Below, in pieces: positions 1,172 to 19,368 of a stretch of DNA of 20,952 nucleotides. The DNA is taken from IMG/VR virus record IMGVR_UViG_3300044491_002013, positions 1-20,952 of that record, one strand, 5' to 3'. The translations under genes and the position numbers were made by a program. The DNA is from a virus. Every line of letters starts with the position of its first letter. Within the stretch, counting starts at the first letter, position 1. The notes beneath the pieces were generated by a model. That model did not search any database. It worked only from the letters and a program-made list of their open reading frames with translations, and had not been told where the DNA came from.

Positions 1172-1172
1172 T

Positions 1173-1769
1173 ATGGCAACTTATAGATTAATACATGTAA
1201 CAAGAACAGCTGGAGATACAGATGGTCTAGCAGAATTTACTGATGCAGATACAGTACTTCTTCCAGTACATTCATCAGACCCTACAGGTACAACTGAAGG
1301 GGAGATGATATACAATTCTACCGACAATAAAATCAAAATATACAATGGCTCTACTTGGGAAGTAGTAGGGAATACAACAGAAAACATTGAAGACATTGTT
1401 GGTGATATGCTTGTTACTAACGGTACTCATACAGGTATATCTTTTGCATACGATGACGCAGGTGATGGTGCAATAGATGCAACTGTATCAGTATCTTCAG
1501 ATGCTATTTTAGACGCAGATAGTGATACTAAAATACAAGTAGATGAGGGTGGTGTTGATGAAGATAAAATTAGATATGATGTTGCAGGAACAGAGGTTGC
1601 TGTACAAGATGCAGGTGGTATCGCTTTAACAACAAATGGCGGTATGTTTAGACATAATCAAACACAAGCTGCAACTTTTACAATACCTTCTGGCGAAGGA
1701 ACATTATTAGCAGGACCAGTAACTATTACTGGTACAGTAACAAATAACGGAACAATGGTGATTATATAA
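1173..1769 (+). CDS. Putative tail fibre protein with YNGSTW module, non-Gly-rich
   Basis: 198 residues. Residues about 44-63 carry 'EMIYNSTDNKIKIYNGSTWE', the C-terminal half of the adaptor shared by the neighbouring fibres. This is followed by an Asp/Thr/Gly-rich region ('DIVGDMLVTNGTHTGISFAY') of a type frequent in long phage tail fibres. The final part, 'TFTIPSGEGTLLAGPVTITG' up to 'TMVII', looks like a short beta-structured tip. The closest relative in the window is the protein at 6522-7052, with a similar N-terminus ('GDTDGLAEF' against 'GDSNGLAEF') and a similar C-terminus ('VTITGTVTNNGTMVII' against 'VTFTGTVTVEGEMVVV'). The gene follows the Gly-rich paralogue after one base, with GGAG inside the preceding Trp-Ser codons, and its stop overlaps the next start (TAATG). 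It is probably a virion component; the exact role is unknown. Confidence 0.7.
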   Translation: MATYRLIHVTRTAGDTDGLAEFTDADTVLLPVHSSDPTGTTEGEMIYNSTDNKIKIYNGSTWEVVGNTTENIEDIVGDMLVTNGTHTGISFAYDDAGDGAIDATVSVSSDAILDADSDTKIQVDEGGVDEDKIRYDVAGTEVAVQDAGGIALTTNGGMFRHNQTQAATFTIPSGEGTLLAGPVTITGTVTNNGTMVII

Positions 1770-1960
1770 TGGCTACATTAAAAGTAAATACAATATCAAC
1801 ATCTACAGGAAATAACATTGCAATGCAGTGTCCTATTAATGTTAAGTCTTATACAACCTCTGAGCGTGATGCTCTAACTAGTGCTGCTGGTGATATTATA
1901 TACAATAGCACAGACAGTAAAGTTCAATTTTACAATGGCTCAGCGTGGAATGATTTATAA
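1769..1960 (+). CDS. Stand-alone fibre adaptor module (63 aa)
   Basis: The whole protein is equivalent to the N-terminal adaptor of the fibres at 1960, 3066 and 4096. It starts 'MATLKVNTISTSTGNNIAM', continues through 'SYTTSERDALTSAAGDIIYN', and ends 'VQFYNGSAWNDL' exactly where the paralogues continue into their Gly-rich domains. It starts and ends in TAATG overlaps, so it appears to be a genuine translated member of the array. It may be a fibre that has lost its distal domain, a capping or assembly subunit, or a recombination acceptor; these are inferences. Virion attachment is the likely role of this module in the full-length proteins, because it is the constant part while the rest varies. 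Confidence 0.65.
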   Translation: MATLKVNTISTSTGNNIAMQCPINVKSYTTSERDALTSAAGDIIYNSTDSKVQFYNGSAWNDL

Positions 1961-3066
1961 TGTCAACACTCGAAACCAACTCTATAGGTAAATACTCTGG
2001 TAATAATGTATCTATTGATGATGCTTTAAATTTAAAGTCATACGACACAGCAGGTAGAGATGCACTTACATCAGTTGCTGGTGATACAATATACAATACA
2101 ACAACTTCTAAAATAGAATTTTACACTGGCTCTGCTTGGGTAGAAGGTGGTGGAGCTGACATATCTACTTTTACAGTAGACTTTTTAGTAATAGGTCCTG
2201 GTGGTGGAGGTGGTGGTGGTGAACCACATACATCAGGCGACCAAGCTGGTGGTGGAGGAGCTGGAAGATATAGAACTTCTTATGGTTCTGGAAATATTTC
2301 TGGTGGATTATCAGCAGTAGAAAGCAATTTAACAATAAACAAAGGCGTACCTATTCCAGTTTCTATTGGAGCAGGAGGTTCTGGTGGTACAGATTCTGGT
2401 GTTAAAGGTGGTAATGGAAGTGATACTTATTTTTATAATATTTACTCTATAGGTGGTGGTGGAGGTGGAACTGAAGAAGGTTACAATGATATTGCTGGTA
2501 ACTCTGGTGGTTCTAGTGGTGGTCAAGGTAAGAGAAATGGATTGTCTGCAAACTCTGGTAATTCTCCACAAGGTTTACCTTTTTATACTGGTTATGGTTT
2601 TCGTGGTGGTTACACTTCTGCTGGTGGTAGAGGTGGAGCTGGTGGTGGAGGAGCTGGAGCAAATGGTGTAGATGGTGGACAAAATTATGCACCACAAGGA
2701 GGAGCTGGAATAGACAGTTCTATTACTGGTTCTGCTATAGGCAGAGGTGGTGGTGGAGGTGGTGGAGCTTCTGGTGGTAATAGTGTTCTTACCTCTCCAG
2801 ATGGTGGTGGTAATGGAGGTTCTAATAATACTGTTGCACAAGCAGGAGATGTTAATAAAGGTGGTGGAGGTGGTGGAGGTTCTTGTCAAACAATAGGTAA
2901 TCCATCAGTAGGTGCAGCAGGAGGAAGTGGCGTAGTTATACTTAGATATGCTACAGCAGATGTAGCTTCTTACTCACAAATAGGTTTAACAATTTCATCA
3001 AGTACAGATGGTTCTGATACAATATTAGAAATAACAGCAGGAACAGGAACAGTGACATTTAGCTAA
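1960..3066 (+). CDS. Glycine-rich tail fibre/adhesin, paralogue 2 (adaptor + Gly-rich)
   Basis: 368 residues in three parts. Residues 1-62 are the adaptor ('SGNNVSIDDALNLKSYDTAG', 'SVAGDTIYNTTTSKIEFYTG'). The Gly-rich domain opens with 'DFLVIGPGGGGGGG' at about 72 and closes with 'GGSGVVILRYATAD' at about 321-334. A 34-residue tail ends 'ITAGTGTVTFS'. Inside the Gly-rich domain, 'SITGSAIGRGGGGGGGASGG' is shared with the other paralogues. The protein is probably a trimeric or brush-like surface adhesin of the virion. Start and stop both overlap neighbours as TAATG, so expression is likely coupled. A single Cys (in 'GGSCQTIGNP') is unusual for these Cys-poor proteins. Confidence 0.85.
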   Translation: MSTLETNSIGKYSGNNVSIDDALNLKSYDTAGRDALTSVAGDTIYNTTTSKIEFYTGSAWVEGGGADISTFTVDFLVIGPGGGGGGGEPHTSGDQAGGGGAGRYRTSYGSGNISGGLSAVESNLTINKGVPIPVSIGAGGSGGTDSGVKGGNGSDTYFYNIYSIGGGGGGTEEGYNDIAGNSGGSSGGQGKRNGLSANSGNSPQGLPFYTGYGFRGGYTSAGGRGGAGGGGAGANGVDGGQNYAPQGGAGIDSSITGSAIGRGGGGGGGASGGNSVLTSPDGGGNGGSNNTVAQAGDVNKGGGGGGGSCQTIGNPSVGAAGGSGVVILRYATADVASYSQIGLTISSSTDGSDTILEITAGTGTVTFS

Positions 3067-4094
3067 TGAGTGAATTAAAAACAAATAAGATTTCAACAAA
3101 TGACCAGAACAATGTAGCTATAGATAATGCACTTGGATTAAAGTCATACACCACAGCACAAAGAGATGCTTTAACTTCTGTTGCTGGTGATATAATTTAC
3201 AATACAACTGAAGCAGTTCCACAATATTACAATGGTTCTTCTTGGATAAGTATGAAAACTTTTCTTGATTTAGATGTAGATGTTTTACTTGTAGCAGGTG
3301 GTGGTGGAGGTGCTACTGATAGAGGTGGTGGTGGAGGTGCTGGTGGAGTATTTTATACAACAGCACAATCATTAAGTAGAAATACAAATTATACCGTTAC
3401 AGTTGGAGCAGGAGGAGCTGGTGGTGTCGGTAATTCAGGTGCAGCCGTTCCCGGAACTGTTGGTTTTGATAGCAATTTTGCAAGTTTTACATCTGCAAAA
3501 GGTGGTGGAGGTGGTGGTGGACCTGCTAACGCAGGAACTGGTGGTTCTGGTGGTGGTGCTAGATTTCCTTACAATGCTGGTACAAGTAATCAAACAAGTA
3601 CTGGAGGAAATGGTTATGGTAACGCTGGTGGAGAAGATAGTTCCTATGGTGCTGGTGGTGGTGGTGGAGCTGGTGCTGCTGGTTCTAATGCTAGTGGAAA
3701 TAATGGTGGTAATGGTGGAGGAGGAAGAGATTTTACAATAACAGGTTCAACAGTAAGATACGCAGGTGGTGGGGGTGGTGGAGCTTCTAATGATGGTAGC
3801 AATGGTTCTGGAGGTAGTGGTGGTTCTGGTGGTGGTGGAGCTGGTGCAAGTGGTAAAGTTGGAAATAGTGGTGGTAATGGTGGAACAAACTTAGGTGGTG
3901 GTGGTGGTGGAGCTGATAACTTACCAAGAACTGGTTCTGGTGGTACAGGTGGCTCTGGTGTAGTAATAGTAAGATACCCTACTTTATCTGGTACTATAAA
4001 TGTAGGTGCAGGTTTAACAAGTTCTACAACTACAGATGGTTTATATAAAGTTACTTCTTTTACAGAAGGTACAGGAACAATAAGTTGGACATAA
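3066..4094 (+). CDS. Glycine-rich tail fibre/adhesin, paralogue 3 (adaptor + Gly-rich)
   Basis: 342 residues. The adaptor (1-62) includes 'NNVAIDNALGLKSYTTAQRD' and 'IIYNTTEAVPQYYNGSSW'. The Gly-rich part starts at 'DVLLVAGGGGGATDRGGGGG' (about 75) and closes with 'GGSGVVIVRYP' near 295-305. The tail is 'GLTSSTTTDGLYKVTSFTEG' followed by 'TGTISWT'. The segment 'NTNYTVTVGAGGAGG' matches equivalent segments of the proteins at 4096 and 5498. The C-terminal part is densely encoded by GGT/GGA runs. The antisense strand of this part reads as an open Pro-rich frame, which is a composition artefact. The start overlaps the upstream stop (TAATG), and the stop is followed directly by the next ATG (TAATATG). 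Receptor binding is inferred, not shown. Confidence 0.85.
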   Translation: MSELKTNKISTNDQNNVAIDNALGLKSYTTAQRDALTSVAGDIIYNTTEAVPQYYNGSSWISMKTFLDLDVDVLLVAGGGGGATDRGGGGGAGGVFYTTAQSLSRNTNYTVTVGAGGAGGVGNSGAAVPGTVGFDSNFASFTSAKGGGGGGGPANAGTGGSGGGARFPYNAGTSNQTSTGGNGYGNAGGEDSSYGAGGGGGAGAAGSNASGNNGGNGGGGRDFTITGSTVRYAGGGGGGASNDGSNGSGGSGGSGGGGAGASGKVGNSGGNGGTNLGGGGGGADNLPRTGSGGTGGSGVVIVRYPTLSGTINVGAGLTSSTTTDGLYKVTSFTEGTGTISWT

Positions 4095-4095
4095 T

Positions 4096-5049
4096 ATGAG
4101 TAGATTAAAAGTAGATAACATAGAACCAAGAAGCGGTAATAATGTCGCAATAGATAATCCTATGAATTTAAAGTCCTATACAACTGCACAAAGAGATGCA
4201 CTTACATCTGTTGCTGGGGATATGATTTACAACTCTACTGATAGTAAGGTCCAAGTTCATAATGGTTCTGCTTGGGATGATTTAGGTGCAACACTTATAT
4301 CTGCTGATTTTTTAGTTGTTGGTGGAGGAGGTGGAGCAGGTTCAAGACACGCTGGTGGTGGTGGTGCTGGAGGTTTAAGAACTTCATCTGGAACATCTGG
4401 TGGTGGAGCAAGTGCAGAAACTGCACAAACAATAGTAGCTGGACAATCTTATACAGTAGCTGTTGGAGCAGGAGGACCAGGTTTTCCAAATGATGCTATA
4501 GATGGTTTAGGTGTGAATGGTGGACCTAGTTTATTTGCTTCTATTATTTCTATTGGTGGTGGTGGAGGTTCTGGTGGTAGAACAATAGGTTCAAATGGTG
4601 GTTCTGGTGGTGGAGGTGGTGGTAATATTACTTTTACTCCTGGCTCTGGAACAACAAATCAAGGTTTTGGTGGTGGAACTGGTAGTTCAACTAACTATCG
4701 TGGTGGTGCTGGAGGTGGTGCTGGAGGTGTAGGCAGTAATGCTGCAGACAGTGGTGCTGCTGGTGGTGTAGGTGTTTCTAACTCTTTATCTGGAAGTGCT
4801 GTAACCTATGCAACAGGTGGTAAAGGTTCTGGAACTTATTTTGCTGGAGATGGTCCAGATGGTGGAGCAAATACAGGAGATGGTGGTGGAGCTTTAAGAG
4901 GAGATGGTGGTTCTGGAATAGTAATAATAAAATTTTCTGATAGTTACACTTGCACAGTAGGTGCAGGACTTACAAGTTCTAGTTCAACAGCAGGTGGATT
5001 TACAACTATAAGTTTTACAGCAGGAACAGGAACAGTGAGCTTTTCATAA
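4096..5049 (+). CDS. Glycine-rich tail fibre/adhesin, paralogue 4 (adaptor + Gly-rich)
   Basis: 317 residues. The adaptor is the most typical copy: 'MSRLKVDNIEPRSGNNVAID', 'SYTTAQRDALTSVAGDMIYN' and 'KVQVHNGSAWDDL'. The Gly-rich domain begins 'DFLVVGGGGGAGSRHAGGGG' at about 72 and closes 'GGSGIVIIKFSDSYTCTVGA', a variant of the VVILRY closing strand. The tail ends 'TAGTGTVSFS'. It is the last gene before a 51-base gap that contains a promoter-like sequence and the ribosome-binding site of the next gene, so it probably ends the first coupled run. Its closing tail ('VGAGLTSSSSTAGG') resembles that of paralogue 3 ('VGAGLTSSTTTDG'), which suggests duplication of neighbouring genes. Confidence 0.85.
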   Translation: MSRLKVDNIEPRSGNNVAIDNPMNLKSYTTAQRDALTSVAGDMIYNSTDSKVQVHNGSAWDDLGATLISADFLVVGGGGGAGSRHAGGGGAGGLRTSSGTSGGGASAETAQTIVAGQSYTVAVGAGGPGFPNDAIDGLGVNGGPSLFASIISIGGGGGSGGRTIGSNGGSGGGGGGNITFTPGSGTTNQGFGGGTGSSTNYRGGAGGGAGGVGSNAADSGAAGGVGVSNSLSGSAVTYATGGKGSGTYFAGDGPDGGANTGDGGGALRGDGGSGIVIIKFSDSYTCTVGAGLTSSSSTAGGFTTISFTAGTGTVSFS

Positions 5050-5071
5050 TGCAATTATTTTTAAAAACCTC

Positions 5072-5080
5072 TGTTAAGAT
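5072..5080 (+). promoter_or_regulatory. Putative extended -10 promoter upstream of 5101
   Basis: TGTTAAGAT fits the TGn-TAnnAT pattern seen before several block-leading genes here. It lies 20 bases upstream of the ATG, followed by AGGAG at 5090-5094 and a six-base spacer. No convincing -35 element is visible. The -10 core TAAGAT matches the consensus at four of six positions, so this is one of the weaker members of the set. Confidence 0.4.
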
Positions 5081-5100
5081 ACATAAGATAGGAGAATAAT

Positions 5101-5505
5101 ATGGCACATTATGCCTTTTTAAACGACAACAATATAGTAACTGAAGTTATTGTAGGTAAAGACGAGTCTGATACAGAAGGACTTCCAGAAGGCTTTGATA
5201 GCTGGGAAGCTTGGTATGGAGATTTTCGTGGACAAACTTGCAAAAGAACTTCTTACAACACTGTTGGTAATTCTCACACCTTAGATGGTACACCGTTTCG
5301 CGGTAACTATGCAGGAATCGGATTCACTTATGATGAAGACGAAGATGCTTTTTACCCAGCGAAACCATATGCTAGTTGGACACTTAGTGAAAACTATGTA
5401 TGGGAAGCTCCAAATGCTTATCCAGATGATGGAGAAGCTTATATTTGGAACGAGAATGCTTACAACGGTGATAACACTCAAGGGTGGGAATTAGTCAATG
5501 GCTAG
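5101..5505 (+). CDS. Conserved phage virion-associated protein (134 aa), function unknown
   Basis: 134 residues, starting 'MAHYAFLNDNNIVTEVIVGK'. It has a middle 'CKRTSYNTVGNSHTLDGTPF', then 'RGNYAGIGFTYDEDEDAFYP' and 'AKPYASWTLSENYVWEAP'. I recognise this pattern (a short beta-rich protein with 'TSYNT.GN.H...GTPFR.NYAGIG..YD...DAF..PKP..SW') as a family widespread in marine phages, usually annotated as hypothetical and found among tail genes. Its biochemical role is not known to me. It interrupts the Gly-rich fibre array, has its own ribosome-binding site (AGGAG, six-base spacer) and putative promoter, and its last eight bases overlap the next fibre gene. A supply or assembly role for the fibres is possible, but nothing in the sequence proves it. 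Confidence 0.8.
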   Translation: MAHYAFLNDNNIVTEVIVGKDESDTEGLPEGFDSWEAWYGDFRGQTCKRTSYNTVGNSHTLDGTPFRGNYAGIGFTYDEDEDAFYPAKPYASWTLSENYVWEAPNAYPDDGEAYIWNENAYNGDNTQGWELVNG

Positions 5506-6520
5506 TGAACTAAAAGTAGATAACATATCTGAAAAGACTACTAATGCTGGTGTACAGCTTAGTTCATCTTTGGGTTTTGTTTCTAAAACTACAACTGAAA
5601 TGAATGCACTTAGTGGTATGGCTGCTGGTGATACTATCTATAATGAAACTGAAGGAACTCTTTATGTTTATAACGGTATCGTATGGTTTGCTTTGTCAGA
5701 TAACACATTTCAATTTGTAATATCTTCATTAGTTATAGCTGGTGGTGGTGGTGGTGGTTCTGGTTCTGGTGGTGGTGGAGGTGCTGGAGGTTATAGAAAC
5801 TCTTATGCTTCTGAAACTTCTGGTGATAATTCATCTACTGAAACACCCTTAACTTTAAATTTAAATACAAACTATACAGTAACAGTAGGTGCTGGTGGTG
5901 TAGGTAATAATAATGGAAACAACTCTGTTTTTGCAACAATAACTTCTACTGGTGGTGGTAAAAGTTTTACTAATGGTGGTTGTGGTGGTGGAGCAGCTTA
6001 CGATACTTCTCGTGGTTATGGAACAGCAAATCAAGGTGGTGATGGTGGAGCTGGTAGAACAGGTTCTGGTGGTGATAGTTCTGGCGACCCCTATATAGGT
6101 GGTGGTGGTGGTGGTGTAGGAGGTAATGGTAATGATGCTACCTCAAATGGTGCTAATGGTGGTTCTGGATTATCTTCTTCAATAACTGGTTCAGCAGTCA
6201 CAAGAGGTGGTGGTGGTGGTAATGGTGCTGATAGTTACAGAAAAGTATCTTCCAATGGTTCTGGAGGTTCTGGTGGTGGTGGAACAGGAGGAACTACAGG
6301 AGCAGGTTCAGCAGGAACTGCATACACAGGTTCTGGTGGTGGTGGAGGAAACAACACAAACTCTGGAGGTAATGGTGGTTCTGGAATAGTAATACTTAGC
6401 TATCCTTCAACAAAAACAATTACTTTAGCTGGTGGAGCTTCAAGTACTGCTGGAGAACAAACAAGTGGTTCAAGAAAATACATAGAAATACAAACAAGTG
6501 GAACAGTAAGCTGGAGTTAA
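5498..6520 (+). CDS. Glycine-rich tail fibre/adhesin, paralogue 5
   Basis: 340 residues. The N-terminal adaptor is a divergent copy: 'MASELKVDNISEKTTNAGVQ', 'MNALSGMAAGDTIYNETEGT' and 'LYVYNGIVWFAL'. Its 'SEKT.NAGV' links it to the motif found in the proteins at 7052 and 8192. The Gly-rich domain opens 'SSLVIAGGGGGGSGSGGGGG' at about 77 and closes 'GGSGIVILSYPSTKTITL', and the protein ends 'GTVSWS'. Within the Gly-rich part, 'GGYRNSYASETSG', 'TETPLTLNLNTNYTVTVGAG' and 'GLSSSITGSAVTRGGGGG' are near copies of segments of the protein at 296-1171. The start overlaps the end of the upstream gene by eight bases. The final TGG AGT codons supply GGAG for the following gene. Confidence 0.85.
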   Translation: MASELKVDNISEKTTNAGVQLSSSLGFVSKTTTEMNALSGMAAGDTIYNETEGTLYVYNGIVWFALSDNTFQFVISSLVIAGGGGGGSGSGGGGGAGGYRNSYASETSGDNSSTETPLTLNLNTNYTVTVGAGGVGNNNGNNSVFATITSTGGGKSFTNGGCGGGAAYDTSRGYGTANQGGDGGAGRTGSGGDSSGDPYIGGGGGGVGGNGNDATSNGANGGSGLSSSITGSAVTRGGGGGNGADSYRKVSSNGSGGSGGGGTGGTTGAGSAGTAYTGSGGGGGNNTNSGGNGGSGIVILSYPSTKTITLAGGASSTAGEQTSGSRKYIEIQTSGTVSWS

Positions 6521-7052: not shown

Positions 7053-7834
7053 TGGGTAAAATTAAAGTTAACGAAATAGAAAAGCACGATGCTACTGAAG
7101 TAACAGTTAATTCTGATGTAGTTATGGCTGCTGGAACTTCTGTTTCTTCTCCAAGTATCTCTACTGACACTATATCTGAAAAAACTTCAGCTAGTGGCGT
7201 TACTGTAGATGGAGTTTTACTTAAAGATAATTCTGTTAACACTGATACCATATCTGAAAAGACTTCTGGTTCTGGTGTTACTATTGATGGTGTATTAATA
7301 AAAGATAGTAAAATTGGTGGAACAATAACAGTACCTAGTTCTACAGGAACAATGGCTTTGACTTCTGATATTAGTGCAGGTGGATTAGAAATGGTAGATA
7401 TTTATCAACTTACCGCAGATATTACAACCCTTGGAACAAATAGTATTACAGCAAATTTATCTCAAAAATCTGGTACTTTAGAAACAACAATAGGAACAGG
7501 AATGACAAATACAGGTGGTCAATTTTCATTCCCAACAACAGGTAAGTATTTGGTACAAGTACAAGCATATTTAGCTTCAAGAGCTAATGGTGCTGGAGAT
7601 GCACGACTTTACATAGTAGCAACTGATGATAATTTTAGTACTTCTTCTATAATTAATTGGAATAGAGTATATGCAAATGCTAATAATCAATATACAACCA
7701 CTTTCTCTCAAACATTAGTTGATATAACAGATATATCTAATGACAAAATAATATTTCAAAGTTATTTATCTGGAGATGCAAATGTTATGGGTACTTATAC
7801 AACATTTGGATTTTACAAATTAGGAGATACATAA
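7052..7834 (+). CDS. Tail fibre protein with two SEKT repeats and a predicted jelly-roll head
   Basis: 260 residues. The N-terminus, 'MGKIKVNEIEKHDATEVTVN', is an adaptor-like leader. It is followed by two adjacent 26-residue repeats beginning 'DTISEKTSASGVTVDGVLLK' and 'DTISEKTSGSGVTIDGVLIK' (residues about 39-90). After a linker ('GGTITVPSSTGTMALTSDI') comes a ~150-residue C-terminal domain with 'GGQFSFPTTGKYLVQVQAYL' and the ending 'TTFGFYKLGDT'. The 'F.FP..G.YLV...A' pattern and length resemble C1q/TNF-like jelly-roll heads found at the tips of phage fibres. This fold call is an inference from pattern only. It overlaps both neighbours as TAATG and precedes an assembly-like gene, the usual order for a fibre and its chaperone. 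Confidence 0.75.
   Translation: MGKIKVNEIEKHDATEVTVNSDVVMAAGTSVSSPSISTDTISEKTSASGVTVDGVLLKDNSVNTDTISEKTSGSGVTIDGVLIKDSKIGGTITVPSSTGTMALTSDISAGGLEMVDIYQLTADITTLGTNSITANLSQKSGTLETTIGTGMTNTGGQFSFPTTGKYLVQVQAYLASRANGAGDARLYIVATDDNFSTSSIINWNRVYANANNQYTTTFSQTLVDITDISNDKIIFQSYLSGDANVMGTYTTFGFYKLGDT
7166..7321 (+). repeat. Two tandem 78-bp (26-codon) repeats inside a tail fibre gene
   Basis: The units start at 7166 and 7244 and encode 26 residues each with the pattern DTISEKTS.SGVT.DGVL.KD. Codons differ between the units, so this is an old, purified duplication rather than a recent slip. A single degenerate copy ('DTMTEKTADAGVTIEGVQIK') occurs in the gene at 8192 and a partial one in the gene at 5498. 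Confidence 0.8.
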
Positions 7835-8142
7835 TGTTACAACAGGCACTTGCACACTTTAACAAAGACAAACACCAATGGTATGGTTGGATAAATCTTG
7901 AAGATGGCGAAGTCTATTCTAATCTAAAACTCAATGATGATACAGCTATTATGCCAACAGAAGAAGAAGTCAATGCAAAGATTGCAGAACTTCAATGGAT
8001 TAAAAATAGAGCATTTGCTTATCCACAGCTTGGAGAACAATTTGATAAGCTATGGCACGATATAAATAATGGTACATTAGACGAAACAGGCGAATTTTTT
8101 ACAGCGTTAAAACAGGTTAAAGATGACAATCCTAAACCTTAA
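7834..8142 (+). CDS. Putative tail fibre assembly/chaperone-like protein
   Basis: 102 residues. The N-terminal half is 'HFNKDKHQWYGWINLEDGEV' and then 'PTEEEVNAKIAELQ'. The C-terminal half, 'AYPQLGEQFDKLWHDINNGT', ends in 'ALKQVKDDNPKP'. The 'YP.L..Q.D.L..D...G' followed by 'FY.A...VK...PKP' layout is, as I know it, characteristic of small phage tail proteins often compared with fibre-assembly chaperones. The gene at 12155 is a relative sharing 'EQ(F/L)D.(L/M)' and the 'K.DNPKP' end. It overlaps the predicted jelly-roll fibre (TAATG) and is the last gene before a 49-base gap with a promoter-like motif. The role is inferred from family resemblance and position. Confidence 0.65.
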   Translation: MLQQALAHFNKDKHQWYGWINLEDGEVYSNLKLNDDTAIMPTEEEVNAKIAELQWIKNRAFAYPQLGEQFDKLWHDINNGTLDETGEFFTALKQVKDDNPKP

Positions 8143-8191: not shown

Positions 8192-8392
8192 ATGGGTAAA
8201 ATTAAAACAGACGAATTAGAAGAAAGAGTTGGTAGTGCTGGTATTACTGTAAATTCTACAGTAAAAATAGACACTATGACAGAGAAGACAGCCGATGCTG
8301 GAGTCACTATAGAAGGTGTTCAAATCAAAGACGGAACAATCGTTACTGATTTAGGATACGCTGATATAGGGCTAGTGATAGCGTTAGGTTAG
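8192..8392 (+). CDS. Small SEKT-motif structural protein
   Basis: 66 residues starting 'MGKIKTDELEERVGSAGITV', very like the leader of the fibre at 7052 ('MGKIKVNEIE'). It then has one copy of the fibre repeat motif ('DTMTEKTADAGVTIEGVQIK') and a hydrophobic end, 'YADIGLVIALG'. It looks like a truncated or stand-alone shaft module of a tail fibre, in the same way that 1769-1960 is a stand-alone adaptor. The start is backed by AGGAG with an eight-base spacer, and the gene leads a new block after a promoter-like sequence. Its TAG stop is part of the TAGGAG ribosome-binding site of the next gene. No enzymatic function is evident. Confidence 0.65.
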   Translation: MGKIKTDELEERVGSAGITVNSTVKIDTMTEKTADAGVTIEGVQIKDGTIVTDLGYADIGLVIALG

Positions 8393-8399
8393 GAGACAA

Positions 8400-8735
8400 A
8401 TGGCTAATACATTCAAGAATGCTTATTTAGATGTTACGAGCTCTGCACAAACTGTATACACAGCACCATCAAGTGCTGGTAATGTTGGTATCGTATTAAC
8501 ACTTAGAATAACAAATGTTGACGGTGCAGCAGATGATACAATAACAGCAGATATAGTAGACGCTTCATCTGGTGGTGCAAAGATTGCTCACACTATGGCT
8601 GTCCCAGCTGATTCATCAGTTGAGTTAGCAGGAACATCAAAAATAGTATTGGAAGCTGGAGATTCAATCCAACTAACTGGGGGTAATGCCTCTGGAGACT
8701 TGGAAGCTTTTGTAAGTGCTTTAGAAATAACCTAG
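8400..8735 (+). CDS. Conserved phage structural protein (111 aa, beta-rich)
   Basis: 111 residues. 'MANTFKNAYLDVTSSAQTVY' and 'TAPSSAGNVGIVLTLRITNV' are followed by a Thr/Ala/Asp-rich middle and 'LAGTSKIVLEAGDSIQLTGG'. I recognise the pattern 'MANTFKNA......T.YTAP....IV..L...N......V...I.DAS....ADSS.E...G.KIVLEAGDS(I/L)Q' as a family common in marine phages, annotated as hypothetical or virion structural. It is predicted to be an all-beta sandwich and may decorate the tail or form a fibre connector; that is inference. AGGAG overlapping the upstream stop supports the start. Its own TAG stop lies in the TAGGAGG site of the next gene. Confidence 0.8.
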   Translation: MANTFKNAYLDVTSSAQTVYTAPSSAGNVGIVLTLRITNVDGAADDTITADIVDASSGGAKIAHTMAVPADSSVELAGTSKIVLEAGDSIQLTGGNASGDLEAFVSALEIT

Positions 8736-8744
8736 GAGGTTACA

Positions 8745-9341
8745 ATGCCTTATGGTTATACAGGTGCTTTACCAAATCAAATAAAAAACAATAGCGGCGT
8801 ATTTTCTGTCGCTGACATCACAGACTTAACTGCAAAAGGTCAAGCAGGTGGCTCATTAGAACTTATACAAGACCAAACTGTTTCAAGTGTTGGTCATATT
8901 GATTTTACTTCTATTAAAGAAAATAAATTTGATGTTCATATTTTGTTTTTAAATAATATAACATCTACTGCTAATTTAAATGGTGGTTATCAATTTTTTG
9001 AAAGTGGTGTATTAAGAACTGCTAGTGATTATGATTACGCACAATATTATGGAACTAGACTTGGTAGTTTTTCAGGACAAAGTTCTACAGGTGAAACAAG
9101 AATTGTAAGTGCTAACTTTTTTTCTGCTAATCCAACAAGTGGAATTGCATATTTTTATGATTTAGGCGATAGTTCAAAATTTAGTTATTGCACATATCAA
9201 AATTGGGTAGATGGACAATATTTATTCCAGTTTGGTAGTGGTGTAAGTCCATTAACAAGTTTAGTTGATGGCATAAGAGTTTATACAAGTGGAACTGCTA
9301 TAAGTGGTAATGCAAGATTGTATGGTGTAAAAAAAGTTTAA
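8745..9341 (+). CDS. Tail fibre/tip protein, cassette gene A1
   Basis: 198 residues. The N-terminus, 'MPYGYTGALPNQIKNNSGVF' then 'LTAKGQAGGSLELIQDQ', is the connecting part. The rest is a beta-rich domain ending 'DGIRVYTSGTAISGNARLYG' and 'VKKV'. The end pattern '(I/V).F(Y)...G.I..G...LYG(V/L/I)K' is frequent in phage virion proteins with jelly-roll-like domains. The protein at 10397-11038 shares 'YGY.G..P.Q', 'N.GV....D', 'LELI' and the closing motif, so this is copy 1 of a duplicated gene. TAGGAGG with an eight-base spacer gives the start strong support. It leads a run of six coupled genes. Confidence 0.75.
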   Translation: MPYGYTGALPNQIKNNSGVFSVADITDLTAKGQAGGSLELIQDQTVSSVGHIDFTSIKENKFDVHILFLNNITSTANLNGGYQFFESGVLRTASDYDYAQYYGTRLGSFSGQSSTGETRIVSANFFSANPTSGIAYFYDLGDSSKFSYCTYQNWVDGQYLFQFGSGVSPLTSLVDGIRVYTSGTAISGNARLYGVKKV

Positions 9342-9342
9342 T

Positions 9343-9876
9343 ATGAGTAATTTAAGATATATTAGTACAACAGAAATTTCAACAACTGTTAATACTGTAA
9401 ATATTGAAAATGTATTTACAAATGACTTTGACATTTATGTTATTGAGGGAACTGATATAGGTATGACAAATGGTGGTGGGGATTATTTACATGGTAGAGT
9501 TTTAAATTCTAGTGGTAGTCAAATAACTTCTGATTATGTTTATGCTAGTGCTTATATGGCTAGTTCTTCAACAACAATGGGTGAAGATGGTTTAACAAGT
9601 AGAACAGAATGGGAAAGTTTTGCATTTGTTGGTGATGGTGTTAATGATACAATTGCTTTTACAATGTATATTTTTAATCCAACTAATGCAAGCCAACATA
9701 CTTATTACTATTTAGAGGCAAGCACCCATAGAAATTCAACTGGTATTTGTTATTTATGGCGTAGTATTGGTGTGCATCAAAGCACACAAGATATTAGAGG
9801 AATACAGTTTTCTGCTAAAACAGGAAATATGGATAAAGGAAAATTTCAAATTTATGGATTGAGAGTTGATAGCTAA
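9343..9876 (+). CDS. Tail fibre/tip protein, cassette gene B1
   Basis: 177 residues. The N-terminus is 'MSNLRYISTTEISTTVNTVN' and 'IENVFTNDFDIYVIEGTDI'. The C-terminus is 'IGVHQSTQDIRGIQFSAKTG' then 'MDKGKFQIYGLRVDS'. The gene at 11038 shares 'L.(F/Y)I.TT', 'T(V/I)N(I/V).NVFT..(F/Y)..Y.V', 'IGVH.S...IRG.Q' and 'GK..(I/V)YG(L/V)', and so is its cassette partner. The protein has no Gly-rich region and probably forms a compact beta domain on the virion. The predicted use in host binding follows from family and neighbourhood only. The stop overlaps the next gene as TAATG. The start is one base after the previous stop and has no clear ribosome-binding site, implying translational coupling. Confidence 0.75.
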   Translation: MSNLRYISTTEISTTVNTVNIENVFTNDFDIYVIEGTDIGMTNGGGDYLHGRVLNSSGSQITSDYVYASAYMASSSTTMGEDGLTSRTEWESFAFVGDGVNDTIAFTMYIFNPTNASQHTYYYLEASTHRNSTGICYLWRSIGVHQSTQDIRGIQFSAKTGNMDKGKFQIYGLRVDS

Positions 9877-10394
9877 TGGCAGGACAATTAGTACAAGTAG
9901 CAACAGAAACAGTTACAAGTCCAGTAGGTTTTGTGAAGTTAACAGGCATAGATAGTGATGATGTGTATATGGTTACATATAATGGTGTATATCCAGAAAC
10001 TGTAGACCAAGCAATTCTTATGAGATTTACAACTTCTGGAACTGCTGACACAAGTTCAAATTATAGTAATTCTTTTGAAAGAATAAGAACAGGAACTGAT
10101 GTAAGTAGCGCAAATCCTAATGTTGACTATCATCATACAACTTATAACAATGGCGATAATGCAGGTGATGAAACACAAAATTTTATTGCGTATTTATATA
10201 ATTTTAATAATGCTAGTGGTCATTCATATTTTACTAGTAATTCAGTAGGTTGGTATGCACAAACAACTGAAGCACTCGTTGGTGCACAAGGTGGTGGAAC
10301 TCAAACACTTAATCAAGCTTGTGATGGTGTGTATTTTTATGCAAATTCTGGCAACATAGCAAGTGGTACATTTACATTGTATAGGGTGGTTTAA
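9876..10394 (+). CDS. Tail fibre/tip protein, cassette gene C1
   Basis: 172 residues, starting 'MAGQLVQVATETVTSPVGFV' and 'KLTGIDSDDVYMVTYNGVYP'. The central part is 'MRFTTSGTADTSSNYSNSFE', then 'RIRTGTDVSSANPN'. The end is 'CDGVYFYANSGNIASGTFTL' and 'YRVV'. The motif 'MR...SGTA.DTS.NY......R' and the closing '(D/N)GV(Y/F)(F)Y..SG...SG.F.L' are shared with the gene at 11578, its cassette partner. 'V.FY..SG.I.SG.F.LY' is a widespread ending of phage structural proteins known to me from marine phages. It is probably a virion surface protein. The start overlaps the B1 stop, and a two-base gap separates it from A2. Confidence 0.75.
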   Translation: MAGQLVQVATETVTSPVGFVKLTGIDSDDVYMVTYNGVYPETVDQAILMRFTTSGTADTSSNYSNSFERIRTGTDVSSANPNVDYHHTTYNNGDNAGDETQNFIAYLYNFNNASGHSYFTSNSVGWYAQTTEALVGAQGGGTQTLNQACDGVYFYANSGNIASGTFTLYRVV

Positions 10395-10396
10395 AT

Positions 10397-11038
10397 ATGA
10401 GTAATAAGTATGGATATGTCGGAAAAGATGTACCAACACAATCGTTTGGTTCAAACAAAGGCGTACTTAATACTGATGATTTATACGAACTTAGTAATGC
10501 TGGAAAGCTTACACAGTATGGACAATTAGAATTAATTGAAACTAAAATTGCAAGTGCTGATAGTGCAGTAGATTTTTTAGATTTAGGTAATTACAAAACA
10601 CACTTAGCAACTGTAAATGCTTTTACCCCTGCTACTGATAGCAGACATGTTATTGTTAGATTTTCTATTGATGGTGGGTCTAGTTTTATTGAAAGTGGGT
10701 ACAGAGAAGGACAGCAAGCAATTACTGATAATGGTGGTAGAAGTAATCATAGAAGTGATAGTCAGAGTTTTTTGTGTTATTTAACTTCTTCTATTGGCAA
10801 CGAAACAAATGAAGGTGGCAATGCTGCTATAAGATTTTACAATTTAAAAGATAGTGCTTCACAAAGTTTTTCAACTCAAATGAACTCTGACGCAAGGTAT
10901 GATGGAAGAAATCAATCGGGTTATGGTGCTAGTGTTTATCCTCAAGAAAATGAGGTTAATGCTATTAGATTTACTGGAAATGCAGCAACTACTTGGACTG
11001 GGAGTATATCCTTGTATGGCTATAAGGAGTATTCATAA
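10397..11038 (+). CDS. Tail fibre/tip protein, cassette gene A2
   Basis: 213 residues. It opens 'MSNKYGYVGKDVPTQSFGSN' and 'KGVLNTDDLYELSNAGKLTQ', then 'GQLELIETKIASADSAVDFL'. It ends 'NAIRFTGNAATTWTGSISLY' and 'GYKEYS'. It is the second copy of cassette gene A. Relative to A1 it is longer by about 15 residues, and its middle part (including 'DGGSSFIESGYREGQQAITD') cannot be aligned by eye with A1. The ends are therefore conserved while the presumed exposed centre has changed, as expected of a receptor-contact domain. It begins two bases after C1 and overlaps B2 as TAATG. Confidence 0.75.
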   Translation: MSNKYGYVGKDVPTQSFGSNKGVLNTDDLYELSNAGKLTQYGQLELIETKIASADSAVDFLDLGNYKTHLATVNAFTPATDSRHVIVRFSIDGGSSFIESGYREGQQAITDNGGRSNHRSDSQSFLCYLTSSIGNETNEGGNAAIRFYNLKDSASQSFSTQMNSDARYDGRNQSGYGASVYPQENEVNAIRFTGNAATTWTGSISLYGYKEYS

Positions 11039-11574
11039 TGGCAACATCACTTGAATTTATAAAGACAACACCTGTTACATCTGGAGTAGTAACAATAAAT
11101 GTAGACAATGTTTTTACAGACAAATACGAAATGTATCGTGTTATCTTTGAAGGCATATATCATGATGTAGATATAAGTAATGGTATTGAAGGCATTAGAT
11201 TAATAGATAGTGGTGGTTCTGTTATTACAGAATCGGAATATAGTTACATGAATCATTCTGTACCAATGGCTTTAGGTAGTAGCGTAGAAGATAATTTATA
11301 TCCTACAAGAGATTTTATATTTTTAAGTTTATATGCAGACCAACAATCAGATGGTTCAGCTAATGCAATAATGAACTTTTACAAACCATACGAATCAAAT
11401 ACTTTTACTTATGTAAATTCACAAGCAGCAGGTTTGAATAGTTCTAATGGTTATGCAGGTAAAACTATTGGAGTACATAGAAGTGCAGAAACAATTAGGG
11501 GGTTTCAACTATATGAAAGTAATGGTGCTAGAACTTTTGGTGGTGGAAAGATTATCGTATATGGAGTTAAATAA
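11038..11574 (+). CDS. Tail fibre/tip protein, cassette gene B2
   Basis: 178 residues. N-terminal 'MATSLEFIKTTPVTSGVVTI' and 'NVDNVFTDKYEMYRVIFEGI' match B1 in the arrangement 'FI.TT..T....T(I/V)N...NVFT..Y..Y'. The C-terminal 'IGVHRSAETIRGFQLYESNG' followed by 'GGGKIIVYGVK' also matches B1. The middle differs strongly. The TAATG overlap with A2 shows it belongs to the same transcript. The stop is followed by three bases before C2. It is probably a structural tail-tip protein; receptor specificity cannot be read from the sequence. Confidence 0.75.
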   Translation: MATSLEFIKTTPVTSGVVTINVDNVFTDKYEMYRVIFEGIYHDVDISNGIEGIRLIDSGGSVITESEYSYMNHSVPMALGSSVEDNLYPTRDFIFLSLYADQQSDGSANAIMNFYKPYESNTFTYVNSQAAGLNSSNGYAGKTIGVHRSAETIRGFQLYESNGARTFGGGKIIVYGVK

Positions 11575-11577
11575 ATT

Positions 11578-12111
11578 ATGAGTGGTTCATTAATAAAATT
11601 AGATGAAGAAATAATTACAACATCAACAGCAAATGTAACTTTAGGTGCTGCAAATTGGGACACATCTTATGATGTTTACCAAGTTATTATGACTGATGTA
11701 CAGCTAAGTGCTAATACATCAGTCAATATGAGAATGTTATTAAGTGGTACTGCACAAGACACAAGTAATTATGATAGGGCTTACAATGTTTTAAGAACTG
11801 ACGCTACAACTGCTGCAAGTAATAATACTGAACAAACTTCTAATATGATAAATGGTGGTACAAGTGTTGGCTCGTTAACGAATCATTCTTTTAATTGCAT
11901 TCAATTTTTGTTTTCATTTAATGAATCTAGTAAAAGTAGTCACTATACAAATGAAGCTGTTTTTTTAAGTGAGCATGGTTCTGAAGTATTATTTGGTGTT
12001 AATGGAGGTGGTATGTATGAAGTATCAGCATCACACAATGGTGTATTTTACTATCCTGGTAGTGGTACTTTTGAAAGTGGAAAATTCAGCTTGTTTGGTT
12101 TAAAGAAGTAA
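11578..12111 (+). CDS. Tail fibre/tip protein, cassette gene C2
   Basis: 177 residues. It starts 'MSGSLIKLDEEIITTSTANV' and 'TLGAANWDTSYDVYQVIMTD', contains 'MRMLLSGTAQDTSNYDRAYN', and ends 'HNGVFYYPGSGTFESGKFSL' then 'FGLKK'. 'W....YD.Y.(V/F)......' at the start and 'SG.F.L(F/Y)GLK' at the end are common to many phage tail proteins. It is the partner of C1 and the last gene of the duplicated set. Downstream lies a 43-base gap with a perfect extended -10 sequence and a very strong ribosome-binding site. Confidence 0.75.
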   Translation: MSGSLIKLDEEIITTSTANVTLGAANWDTSYDVYQVIMTDVQLSANTSVNMRMLLSGTAQDTSNYDRAYNVLRTDATTAASNNTEQTSNMINGGTSVGSLTNHSFNCIQFLFSFNESSKSSHYTNEAVFLSEHGSEVLFGVNGGGMYEVSASHNGVFYYPGSGTFESGKFSLFGLKK

Positions 12112-12126
12112 TAGTATGAATATAGA

Positions 12127-12149
12127 TGATATAATTAGAAGGAGGTGAT
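12127..12149 (+). promoter_or_regulatory. Perfect extended -10 promoter and full-length Shine-Dalgarno
   Basis: TGATATAAT at 12127-12135 is a perfect TGn-TATAAT. Just downstream, AAGGAGGTGAT (12139-12149) pairs along its whole length with the usual 3' end of 16S rRNA. The ATG follows at 12155 after five bases. A ten-codon reading frame (ATG 12117, TGA 12147-12149) starts upstream and ends within this Shine-Dalgarno. It may be accidental. Confidence 0.6.
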
Positions 12150-12154
12150 ATAGA

Positions 12155-12475
12155 ATGGCAACTTTAGAAGAATTAACAGCGTCAGCACAGACTGCAATAG
12201 ACGCATTAAAAACTGCTAATGGCGGTGACGGTATGTTTGCTCAAGTCAATAACGAAAGACGAGAGTTTACAGAAGCTGAATACGACCAAGCAGTAATTGA
12301 TAAAGCTAATAACGATTTTGACTTGCAAGAAAATGGTTATAAAACAGCTCGTCAAGAAGCTTACAAATCACTACCAGAACAGTTAGATATGATGTACTGG
12401 GATGGAGTAAATGGTACAACCCTTTGGGCAGACCACATAGCTGAGGTTAAGGAAGACAATCCTAAACCAGAATAA
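12155..12475 (+). CDS. Putative tail fibre assembly/chaperone-like protein
   Basis: 106 residues. The N-terminal part is helical ('TLEELTASAQTAIDALKTAN'). The middle is 'NERREFTEAEYDQAVIDKAN'. The C-terminal part, 'YKSLPEQLDMMYWDGVNGTT', ends 'AEVKEDNPKPE'. The 'YKSLPEQLDM.YWD..NGTT.W...I..VK...P' segment is, in my experience, diagnostic of small phage tail proteins placed next to fibre genes and compared with fibre-assembly proteins such as XkdW or gpK-like families. It shares its ending with the gene at 7834, down to an identical 14-base coding stretch (GACAATCCTAAACC). It is unusually well set up for translation, with an eleven-base Shine-Dalgarno, and is followed by the only clear terminator of the window. 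Confidence 0.7.
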   Translation: MATLEELTASAQTAIDALKTANGGDGMFAQVNNERREFTEAEYDQAVIDKANNDFDLQENGYKTARQEAYKSLPEQLDMMYWDGVNGTTLWADHIAEVKEDNPKPE

Positions 12476-12504
12476 TATTTAACCATAAACCACCATTTAT
12501 GGAG

Positions 12505-12543
12505 AAAGACCCGAACCACCACATATCGGGTCTTTCGCTTTTT
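12505..12543 (+). terminator. Intrinsic terminator of the tail block
   Basis: A perfect nine-base-pair stem (AAAGACCCG at 12505-12513 with CGGGTCTTT at 12527-12535) has a 13-base loop and is followed by CGC and five T residues (12539-12543). It lies 29 bases after the last tail gene and immediately before the next promoter-like sequence, so it separates the tail and post-tail transcription units. Confidence 0.85.
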
Positions 12544-12559
12544 ATGTGATACAATAGAC
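12543..12559 (+). promoter_or_regulatory. Putative extended -10 promoter, leaderless arrangement
   Basis: TATGTGATACAATAGAC has the core TGA-TACAAT at 12547-12555, five of six for the -10 box. Only seven bases separate the box from the ATG at 12563, so a transcript starting at the usual distance would begin at or next to the start codon. The bases before the ATG (GACCTT) contain no Shine-Dalgarno sequence, which agrees with leaderless translation. Confidence 0.6.
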
Positions 12560-12562
12560 CTT

Positions 12563-12754
12563 ATGGACATACCAAAATTCCCAGAGGGAACAAAACGCGA
12601 AGACGCAATTGATGAGTTAATTGACGATGAGCAATTTAAAGAGACTGTATTAAAACAGTTTAATTATATGCGAATTAAAGGAATTAATCTTGTACAAGAT
12701 GCAGATGATATGGTAAATCTTTATCTAAAAATCTGTAAGCAATTCGATAAATAA
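12563..12754 (+). CDS. Hypothetical small acidic protein
   Basis: 63 residues, starting 'MDIPKFPEGTKREDAIDELI' and ending 'ADDMVNLYLKICKQFDK'. It appears to be all helical, with many acidic residues in the middle, and no membrane segment. I do not recognise the family. The placement right after the terminator and a strong extended -10 motif, with no ribosome-binding site, suggests it heads the post-tail transcription unit from a leaderless message. It could be a head-tail accessory or a small regulator; the sequence does not decide. Confidence 0.65.
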   Translation: MDIPKFPEGTKREDAIDELIDDEQFKETVLKQFNYMRIKGINLVQDADDMVNLYLKICKQFDK

Positions 12755-16578: not shown

Positions 16579-19368
16579 GTGAATATCAGTAAAATACAAA
16601 CATTTCTTAGATTATTAGTTGTAGGTTTACTTATATATCCATTACCTATTGCTATGGCTAATCATGTTGCTACACAAGCACCTTATGATACTAATGCTAG
16701 TAATGATGGTAACGCAGGGACATTTACTATTGGTATATTAGGTTCTGATGGATTTGAAGATAGTCCACCAGAAAGCTATACAATCTTTTTTAGTACAAGT
16801 AGTGGTATAACAGAAACAAATAGTTTTTGTGTGACTACTTCTTTTGGACATCAAGATAATACTTGGCAGTATCACACCTTTAGTCTTGATAATTTAAAGT
16901 ATTACTTTAATGACCCAGCAGGTAGAAATATTTATTATAGAGTTAGAGCAAATAACATAACTGATTACAGCTTTTCTGAACTTTCTACTGAAAAGGCTTG
17001 GAATCTTTATGCAGGTCCTCCTTATGATTACAACCAAACAGATTGGTCTGCACCTACAGGAACAGACGCTTGTGATGACCCTAAGATACTTGATGGTATA
17101 GGTGCTCCTACTAACTTAACTACTTCAGCTAACTTACATACTGGAGCAATAACTATAGATTGGTACGCACCAGCTAATATATACGAGTATTCTCCAGAAC
17201 GATATGCAATAGGTTTCGACAAAAAAGACCCACCTATGTATGGTATAGCAACAGGAAATGTTGGAGACGAAAATGCTTTAAACACAGAATATACATTTAC
17301 TAAGTCATATTTACAAGCAGCTCTTGACGCACAAGTAGGAGATACTATATATTTTGAAATAAGGTCTGATAATGATACAAACGCTCAATACTCTACTTGG
17401 ACAACTCTTGCTAGTTATGTAATACAAGATGTAGCTAGTGGTGTTACAAACTTAACAATTTCAAATACTGAGTATCAAGGATTAGAACTTAGTTGGACAC
17501 AACCCAATACAGGTTGGGCAACTCAAACAAGTTATAAGATTGCTTATGGATTAGCACAGGAAAATGTTTCGTGGACTTACATTGCAGACATAGACCCTAC
17601 AGCTACTTCTTATACAATAAACAATGTTAATGCAGGAGATTATGTATTTAGTCTTTATGCTTGCACACAGAATGGTAGCTGGTGTCACGGTAATCAAGAT
17701 GGTCAAAAAGAAGTTACTGTAAACTCAACTACTTCAGTCACTATTCCCCCAGTTCTTGGACCTCCAATGAATCCGCAAGTTCTACAATTTTACAATGCTG
17801 GTGTAACTGTTGCTTGGAATGAAGCAAACACTGGTACTTTAACTGCTGAAAGTTATGAACTTTATTACAGGACTAGCAGTGAAAATGAATATGTTATTAC
17901 AGGAATTACAAATACAAATTATACTATACCTTATGCAGAAATTCCTAATGGAGACTGGACATTTTCAATCAGAGGTTATAGCTCTGACGACAATGTGTAT
18001 AGTGGTTTTTCTACTGAACCTACGGTAACTATATTTAATCAAAAAGCTAAAGACGACGCTGACGCTGCTGCCCAAGCAGCTTATGAGGCTGAGCAAGCTC
18101 GTATAGCTGAAGAAAATCGTATCGCTGAGGAAAATCGTATTGCCGCAGAGAAAGCTGAGGAAGCTCGTAAGGCTGAGGAGGCTCGTATAGCTCAAGAAAA
18201 AGCTGAAGAAGAGGCTCGTATTGAAGCAGAGCGTATTGCAGAAGAAGAGCGTTTAGCTGAAGAAGAGCGTCTTCGTTTAAAGGAAGAAGCTAGAATCAAA
18301 GCTGAGCTAGCAGAGTTAGCTCGTATCGAGGCTGAAGCTGAGGCTAAAATACAAAAGGAGTTAGAAGAGTCTATACTTAAAGATGTAGATACTGATAATT
18401 TATCTGACGATGAAAAAGAAGATTTGAAAGCATTAGTTGATACAATACAACAGTTACAAGAGACATTAGAGGTTATTGAATATGAAGAAGAAGTATTTGA
18501 GTTGGAAGAAATTGTTATTGTTGCTCCTAGTACCACGACTACTACTACAACAACGCTCCCAATTAAAGAAGATTTTGCTGATGAAGAAGCCGAACTTGAC
18601 GAAGTGGAGATTGACCCACTACCTAGTGAGGAAAGAGATTCAGAGGTACAACTCACAGAAGAAGAAGTAGAAATTCTTGTTGAGGAGACTGAAGAAGCTA
18701 TCGCTAAGGTTATTACTATTGAGATAGTAGAAGAAGAGCCTCTCGATACTGAGGGCTTAACAGAAGAGGAAGTATTTGAAGCAGAAGAAAAAGCTGACCA
18801 AGAGCTTACAGAAAAAGTCGAAGCAGCCGTTGCAGAATTACCTACAGAAGAAAAGGTTAAAGTTGTTCAAGCAGTTGCAGAAACTAAGATACAAAACTTA
18901 GGTTCAGCTGATAAAACTACACAAAAAGTAGTTCAAGCTGTTGTTAAAGAAGTAACTAAAGTTGAAACAGTTGCTACTTTATCTGAAGAACAAAAGACAG
19001 AAGTTGGTCAAGTATTAGGATTTACAGAAGAAGAAGCCTCTGAAGACCTTACTATTATTGCCGAACAAGCTTCTAAGGACAAAAATACAGCTCAAGCACT
19101 TGATGAGTTTGTTGAAAGGTCAATTGCTAGTTCTAAAATAGAAAACTTCACACTTGCTGATGTTGTGACAGAGGTACAAATAGAAGCATTTCTTGAAAAC
19201 CCTGTACAGGAGATTTTTAGTGTAAACTTAGAAGAGTTGGATATCAGTTCTATTGGACAAGACATGACCAGTGACCAAAGGGAAAAGGCACAGGAAGTAG
19301 TCGTCCCCGTAATCATTGCGTCTCAAATAATTGCACAAGCGGGTGCATTGATGACTAGGAGATTTTAA
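16579..19368 (+). CDS. Large secreted fibronectin-III-like, coiled-coil, membrane-anchored protein
   Basis: 929 residues. A signal peptide (MNISKIQTFLRLLVVGLLIY, cut near AMAN) is followed by about four fibronectin-III-like beta domains (about 38-140, 177-285, 292-382, 388-484). A Glu/Ala/Arg-rich coiled coil ('IAEENRIAEENRIAAEKAEE' type) runs over about 489-600. A poly-Thr-Leu-Pro linker lies near 651-661, then a very acidic helical region, and finally a hydrophobic segment with 'PVIIASQIIAQAG' and a terminal RRF that looks like a membrane anchor. The start is uncertain: GTG at 16579 keeps the full signal peptide but overlaps its own AGGAG, which points to a short-leader message. The protein would stand on the cell surface, so host-surface modification or superinfection exclusion are candidate roles. 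Poly-Thr-LP linkers are typical of secreted actinobacterial proteins, suggesting host origin. A virion role is less likely given the signal peptide. Confidence 0.7.
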   Translation: MNISKIQTFLRLLVVGLLIYPLPIAMANHVATQAPYDTNASNDGNAGTFTIGILGSDGFEDSPPESYTIFFSTSSGITETNSFCVTTSFGHQDNTWQYHTFSLDNLKYYFNDPAGRNIYYRVRANNITDYSFSELSTEKAWNLYAGPPYDYNQTDWSAPTGTDACDDPKILDGIGAPTNLTTSANLHTGAITIDWYAPANIYEYSPERYAIGFDKKDPPMYGIATGNVGDENALNTEYTFTKSYLQAALDAQVGDTIYFEIRSDNDTNAQYSTWTTLASYVIQDVASGVTNLTISNTEYQGLELSWTQPNTGWATQTSYKIAYGLAQENVSWTYIADIDPTATSYTINNVNAGDYVFSLYACTQNGSWCHGNQDGQKEVTVNSTTSVTIPPVLGPPMNPQVLQFYNAGVTVAWNEANTGTLTAESYELYYRTSSENEYVITGITNTNYTIPYAEIPNGDWTFSIRGYSSDDNVYSGFSTEPTVTIFNQKAKDDADAAAQAAYEAEQARIAEENRIAEENRIAAEKAEEARKAEEARIAQEKAEEEARIEAERIAEEERLAEEERLRLKEEARIKAELAELARIEAEAEAKIQKELEESILKDVDTDNLSDDEKEDLKALVDTIQQLQETLEVIEYEEEVFELEEIVIVAPSTTTTTTTTLPIKEDFADEEAELDEVEIDPLPSEERDSEVQLTEEEVEILVEETEEAIAKVITIEIVEEEPLDTEGLTEEEVFEAEEKADQELTEKVEAAVAELPTEEKVKVVQAVAETKIQNLGSADKTTQKVVQAVVKEVTKVETVATLSEEQKTEVGQVLGFTEEEASEDLTIIAEQASKDKNTAQALDEFVERSIASSKIENFTLADVVTEVQIEAFLENPVQEIFSVNLEELDISSIGQDMTSDQREKAQEVVVPVIIASQIIAQAGALMTRRF
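18050..18380 (+). repeat. Degenerate short repeats encoding a Glu/Ala/Arg coiled coil
   Basis: Units of about 18 bases encode variants of I-A-E-E-N-R and E-A-R-I-A. The clearest adjacent pair is 18103-18120 and 18121-18138, with two differences. The repeats stay in frame and build a long alpha-helical rod between the fibronectin-like domains and the poly-Thr linker. Confidence 0.7.

Follow-up and report, generated by a model that had tools for sequence, protein, structure and literature searches.

The locus studied here raises the question of why one phage should carry two homologous sets of three short genes in a row, and of what their products build together. The window, i.e. the whole stretch of DNA analysed, is a 20,952-base IMG/VR virus record of an ocean phage. 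The original prediction held that three genes, A, B and C, occur twice in the same order at 8745-12111, and the coordinates and the pairing proved exact: the interval is filled by six adjacent genes on one strand, A1-B1-C1-A2-B2-C2, which form two cassettes.

8745..9341, plus strand: A1, 198 aa, anchor and head domain of cassette 1
9343..9876, plus strand: B1, 177 aa, head domain of cassette 1
9876..10394, plus strand: C1, 172 aa, head domain of cassette 1
10397..11038, plus strand: A2, 213 aa, anchor and head domain of cassette 2
11038..11574, plus strand: B2, 178 aa, head domain of cassette 2
11578..12111, plus strand: C2, 177 aa, head domain of cassette 2

Pairwise comparison of the six proteins gave full-length matches at 27-31% identity for A1/A2, B1/B2 and C1/C2 (E 3e-14, 2e-21 and 4e-26, respectively). 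These same-letter pairs scored above 300 of 300 shuffles (z = 16, 26 and 23 for A, B and C) and were the top-scoring among all pairs; A1 is closer to A2 than to B or C, and the same holds for the B and C pairs. Matches between letters were weaker, but mostly beyond the shuffles (for example B1/C2 at 1e-9 and A1/C2 at 7e-8). Because these cross-letter matches are real, A, B and C are paralogues, sister families of one beta domain. On sequence evidence, the six genes all encode copies of a single domain, and A-B-C has been doubled as a set. A tree of the domain alone recovers the A, B and C clades with support of 100/98, 100/100 and 98/96.

In order to find relatives, we scanned IMG/VR with profiles of B, C, A2, C2 and B2, which gave more than 200 loci. 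Two contigs of genomes were also recovered, one from a single-cell assembly of Candidatus Actinomarina and the other binned as Maricaulis. The Candidatus Actinomarina contig (L177) carries a six-gene cassette, a possible host link for the phage group that is not proven for the window. A tblastn search of phage records with the window genes gave no matches, and cultured phages were reached by using a more central C-family relative as query. The pelagiphages HTVC010P, HTVC034P and HTVC019P each have three consecutive genes of about 205 aa with the same domain (AGE60300-60302 in HTVC010P), all annotated ‘hypothetical protein’. Same-slot proteins of HTVC010P and HTVC019P are 58-65% identical, while paralogues within one phage share about 47-57%. 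A second scan with these nine pelagiphage proteins added 80 loci, with short genes in threes or sixes and longer genes with a fibre N-terminus that have one domain copy each; ORFs with two domains were not found. Six of the pelagiphage-type loci (L205, L206, L218, L234, L244 and L255) have a second, upstream trio with N-terminal signatures of the FNSFNVT or MANY/MATY type, which parallels the doubled cassette of the window.

The number of genes per run is strikingly constant. Among 125 complete, non-duplicate runs, 120 have exactly three or six genes, namely 34 ABC, 38 ABCABC, 41 three-gene and 7 six-gene runs of the pelagiphage type. Every ABC-type run of three or six genes in IMG/VR reads ABC or ABCABC (72 of 72), and with slot-specific profiles the uninterrupted loci resolve into A1B1C1A2B2C2 or a single A2B2C2-like set. 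Related phages hence carry A-B-C as a unit, in one or two copies and in fixed order. The five exceptions comprise a locus with a frameshifted A2, one in which A1 is cut by a contig join (L116; the last residues of A1 are still present beyond it) and three singletons with a different fibre N-terminus. The frameshift splits A2 at 4647-5197 of L011 and may be real or a sequencing error. The genes overlap or almost touch at their junctions, and the gaps are near constant, with medians of -4, -1, +1, -1 and -1 bases.

Two loci (L110 and L176) have a glycine-rich fibre gene and a second gene between the two cassettes, which are therefore separable modules. The genes of single-cassette phages group mainly with cassette 2. 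B1 and C1, by contrast, each make up a clade with few other members, which marks cassette 1 as the extra set. The prediction had regarded the second set as an alternative or additional receptor-binding complex; ‘additional’ fits better than ‘alternative’, although the extra set is cassette 1. No inverted repeats of at least 18 nt were found in 8300-12600, and phase-variable alternative fibres were rejected, as no invertible or recombining repeat was found there. Internal promoter and terminator sites in the block were at chance level, and searches for RNA elements and tRNAs found none.

The pelagiphage trios form their own clade (99/98) apart from ABC in the domain-only tree. With more trio types added, the pelagiphage cores mix between slots and the ABC and pelagiphage cores still separate. 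This mixing led us to reject one ancient triplication that would give all slots the same tree; judged from the trees, the trio may have arisen once or twice.

Conserved ends and replaced middles, as originally proposed, hold across relatives, but within the window the middles are diverged homologues rather than replaced sequence. The original pairing of the genes is right, but several of the motifs named as terminal are interior: LELI lies at residues 38-41 of A1, MR..SGTA.. at residues 49-57 of C1 and IGVH at residues 142-145 of B1. The motif given as NVFT..Y..Y reads NVFTNDFDIY in B1. Across relatives, the first twelfth of the proteins has a mean column identity of 0.60-0.66, as against 0.11-0.27 for the bins that vary most. 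The letter (A, B or C) is fixed at 92-100% over most of the length in the window family, with 75% in one ten-residue segment; the cassette number is fixed mainly towards the ends, at 99% for the N-terminus and 95% for the final seven residues, and at 54-88% (mostly 54-77%) elsewhere. Slot specificity in 70 pelagiphage trios is 98% for the first 60 columns and the last 8, and 49-57% for the middle, with 33% expected by chance. It appears from these profiles that the protein ends mark the slot, and that the middles vary or are exchanged.

In the window family only A has an extra N-terminus, of about 36-42 residues, which is absent from B and C.

8745..8855, plus strand: N-terminal anchor of A1, about residues 1-37, without counterpart in B and C
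10397..10525, plus strand: N-terminal anchor of A2, about residues 1-43, with related anchors on glycine-rich fibre proteins

BLAST alignments to B and C start at A1 residues 34-47, and in B and C the head domain is the first part of the protein. The suggestion of three separate docking sites, one for each N-terminus, is not borne out by these data, since B and C have no N-terminal extension and align with A from about residue 35. The A-type anchor also occurs on glycine-rich fibre proteins of two relatives (L118, E 1.3e-7, and L151) and, by eye, in L110 and L176. Most A proteins of single-cassette phages have instead a start of the type MPLGAARFGLLGGV, similar to that of the glycine-rich gene at 296 in the window. 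In the pelagiphage trios the N-termini are short in all three members, and the rule that A anchors while B and C do not is therefore limited to the window family.

We then measured covariation as the correlation of pairwise head identities across 43 six-gene loci. Heads within a cassette gave r of 0.25-0.47 (at most 3 of 1000 permutations), and heads of different cassettes 0.05-0.18. Of the four ways to divide the heads into trios the true one scored highest, and it still did so when the set was thinned to 31 loci and when the anchor was controlled for. The adjacent pair C1/A2 (r 0.18) covaries less than the non-adjacent pair A1/C1 (r 0.47; bootstrap P 0.007), which argues against neighbourhood or linkage as the sole cause; the contrast of C1/A2 with A2/C2 is weaker (P 0.10). 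Between the A1 and A2 anchors the correlation is strong (r=0.87), whereas the A1 anchor shows none with the A1 head (r=0.01). Single genes are, as judged from their similarities, exchanged between phages: in 19 mosaic pairs of loci one gene is identical at 80% or more and another at 45% or less. Exchange of whole cassettes, with breakpoints at the conserved ends, could give covariation without subunit contact.

The neighbouring genes bear on where the products would act. In a single-cassette relative (L132) the cassette is preceded by major head, connector, tail terminator and major tail genes, and in a six-gene relative (L036) by the tape measure gene, which places the cassette at the usual site of receptor-binding proteins in long-tailed phages. 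Its position thus appears to be that of the tail tip in a siphovirus tail operon, among the distal tail genes, where a tail-borne receptor-binding protein would lie. Three genes flank the cassettes of the window.

7834..8142, plus strand: second phrog_9114/1787 member, upstream of the cassettes
8400..8735, plus strand: 111-aa gene directly upstream of A1, weak match to phrog_26609
12155..12475, plus strand: 106-aa assembly-factor-like gene directly downstream of C2, phrog_9114

The 111-aa gene shares its phrog_26609 match with the HTVC010P ‘virion structural protein’ AGE60294. A homologue or a gene of the same size (109-110 aa) precedes A1 in all six-gene loci with upstream flank and is not found beside single cassettes; the 111-aa gene is probably part of the cassette-1 module. 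A phrog_9114 gene directly follows the cassette in nearly all loci with downstream flank. Its counterpart beside the HTVC010P trio matches Pfam XkdW, and a tail-assembly chaperone (PF16778) also adjoins that trio. The two phrog_9114/1787 members of the window flank the cassette region, possibly as one assembly factor per fibre set.

AlphaFold2 monomer models predict for A2 a helix at residues 26-34 followed by an all-beta head (pLDDT 88), and for C2 11 beta strands (pLDDT 94.5). A Foldseek search of the PDB returned nothing at E <= 1e-3, with TM <= 0.3 among the matches listed; as there is no convincing match to a solved structure, we claim no fold name. PDB sequence profiles gave no match, and none of the six genes had a usable Pfam match. 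Foldseek did return 122 viral models at E <= 1e-3; they include one named tail fibre as well as fibre proteins with collagen or Stf repeats, a type that is trimeric. PHROG 14820 is matched nearly over the full length by A2 (1e-5) and B1 (9e-5), by A1 at 0.005 and by 30 of 103 A-family members, and gave no match to C1, C2 or B2; all three HTVC010P trio members match it at E 1e-98 or better. This family matches trio members, but it lumps the three slots and has no function assigned.

Collectively our data point to each cassette encoding a single receptor-binding head, an obligate A:B:C heterotrimer that A anchors, with two such heads per phage, a reading that we consider probable. We prefer it because it accounts for the number three, the slot-specific ends, the trio-wise covariation and the anchor on A alone. 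The hetero-oligomeric tip of the original prediction is thereby the best-supported reading, given copy numbers of only three or six, ends specific to the slot and covariation by trios. In the proposed mechanism and ALTERNATIVES, one A, one B and one C paralogous beta domain would form each head. Docking of the head to the tail tip would fall to the N-terminal anchor of A; B and C would join A through slot-specific interfaces encoded mainly in the conserved ends, and the variable middles would make up the receptor-facing surface. Translationally coupled genes would suit a 1:1:1 supply, with the assembly factor encoded next door. The window phage would then display two heads, that of cassette 2 being widespread and that of cassette 1 an addition.

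Phage fibres are as a rule homotrimeric, and the genes might instead specify three (or six) separate homotrimeric tips, by which several receptor-binding proteins are displayed. Single-gene fibres with the same domain do exist, and in the mosaic pairs single genes are highly similar between phages that differ in other cassette genes. Such tips, however, would not fix the number at three, and runs of 1, 2, 4 or 5 genes are missing save for the explained cases. Moreover, the single-gene versions always have a longer fibre N-terminus, which B and C lack, and the covariation is trio-wise. We regard separate homotrimers as unlikely.

Assembly of all six proteins into one hetero-hexamer at the tail tip would agree with six distinct slots in fixed order in 38 runs and with the strong covariation of the A1 and A2 anchors. 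Yet 34 runs are single cassettes, the cassettes hardly covary with each other, and in two loci they are separated by a glycine-rich fibre gene and a second gene; the covariation of the anchors is expected from a shared virus backbone alone. We give this arrangement hardly any credence. A heterotrimer may also sit on the capsid or neck as a head fibre, given that the virophage precedent described below is predicted on the capsid (PMC12724248) and that the trio is also present in podoviruses that have other tail fibres. Against such a site, the cassette of a long-tailed phage comes after the tape measure gene and a further gene of the tail region, the HTVC010P trio adjoins the tail-assembly chaperone, and the A anchors are common to glycine-rich fibre proteins; a capsid or neck location seems improbable to us. 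The A-anchored heterotrimer at the tail tip remains the reading that we favour.

Phage receptor-binding proteins are generally treated as homotrimers, and the open-access literature (most subscription journals were outside its scope) yielded no heterotrimeric tail fibre in tailed phages. One precedent, the closest, comes from the DSLV2 virophage, where a heterotrimer of three consecutive paralogous tail proteins (QIG59353-59355) was recovered by co-purification (PMC12724248). For these proteins the paper reports a fold resembling the collar and needle of T4 gp37, with PF07484, and predicts a site on the capsid. As in DSLV2, the window genes are three consecutive paralogues of about 200 aa that form clades by position and not by virus, with a proposed role in receptor binding. 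They differ in their all-beta head, which is unrelated and matches nothing in Pfam or the PDB, in belonging to tailed phages and in their doubled cassettes, and the complex is one that we infer from the genes. Because the gp37-like fold with PF07484 collar is not found in the window genes (no Pfam match; no PDB fold at E <= 1e-3), the set would work like that of DSLV2 without membership of its family. What may be new here is a tailed-phage variant of the principle that consecutive paralogues form a heterotrimer, the heterotrimer being a candidate still to be proven.

Two further kinds of fibre share parts with the cassette. Marine tail fibres of the HTVC034P gp39 type have the same C-terminal head domain and an N-terminal YIGxxP module, but consist of one gene with a long N-terminal region and one head, presumably a homotrimer, unlike the cassette of the window. 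Some Gly_rich_2 fibre proteins have the A-type anchor (L118 and L151) but differ in the distal domain and are single genes.

We lean, with some reserve, towards a widespread and so far undescribed class of obligate heterotrimeric receptor-binding heads in tailed phages, including the abundant pelagiphages, in which ends would fix the slot and exchangeable middles would allow combinatorial host recognition, once or twice per genome. If three unequal subunits form one head, three surfaces can change independently, and the search for, expression of or swap of a single gene would miss the functional unit. Trio heads may be a host recognition mode of many marine phages, since relatives that include cultured phages of SAR11, a very abundant bacterium, have the genes in threes or sixes. 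The trio is a concrete candidate for the means by which phages of the HTVC010P type recognise SAR11, directly testable with nine already sequenced genes. Hypervariable host-recognition regions are described in the covered parts of two pelagiphage papers, which do not mention the trios (PMC3909814, PMC10504331).

Five glycine-rich fibre-like genes lie at 296-6520 of the window (at 296, 1960, 3066, 4096 and 5498). Four of them have a common N-terminal module, KxNxI / DALTSVAGDxIYN, and the fifth starts MTLGLMRAGLFGGV; the one tested matches Gly_rich_2. A 134-aa gene at 5101-5505 (phrog_7759) adjoins these genes, and a homologous-looking counterpart lies beside the inserted glycine-rich gene in L110 and L176. 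Further downstream, 16579-19368 encodes a 929-aa protein whose N-terminus is signal-like and which combines an fn3 domain with a long repeat rich in Glu and Ala; the protein is conserved near the cassette in many relatives. Its only match among phage records is Actinomycetia phage DSL-LC01, which hints at an actinobacterial host.
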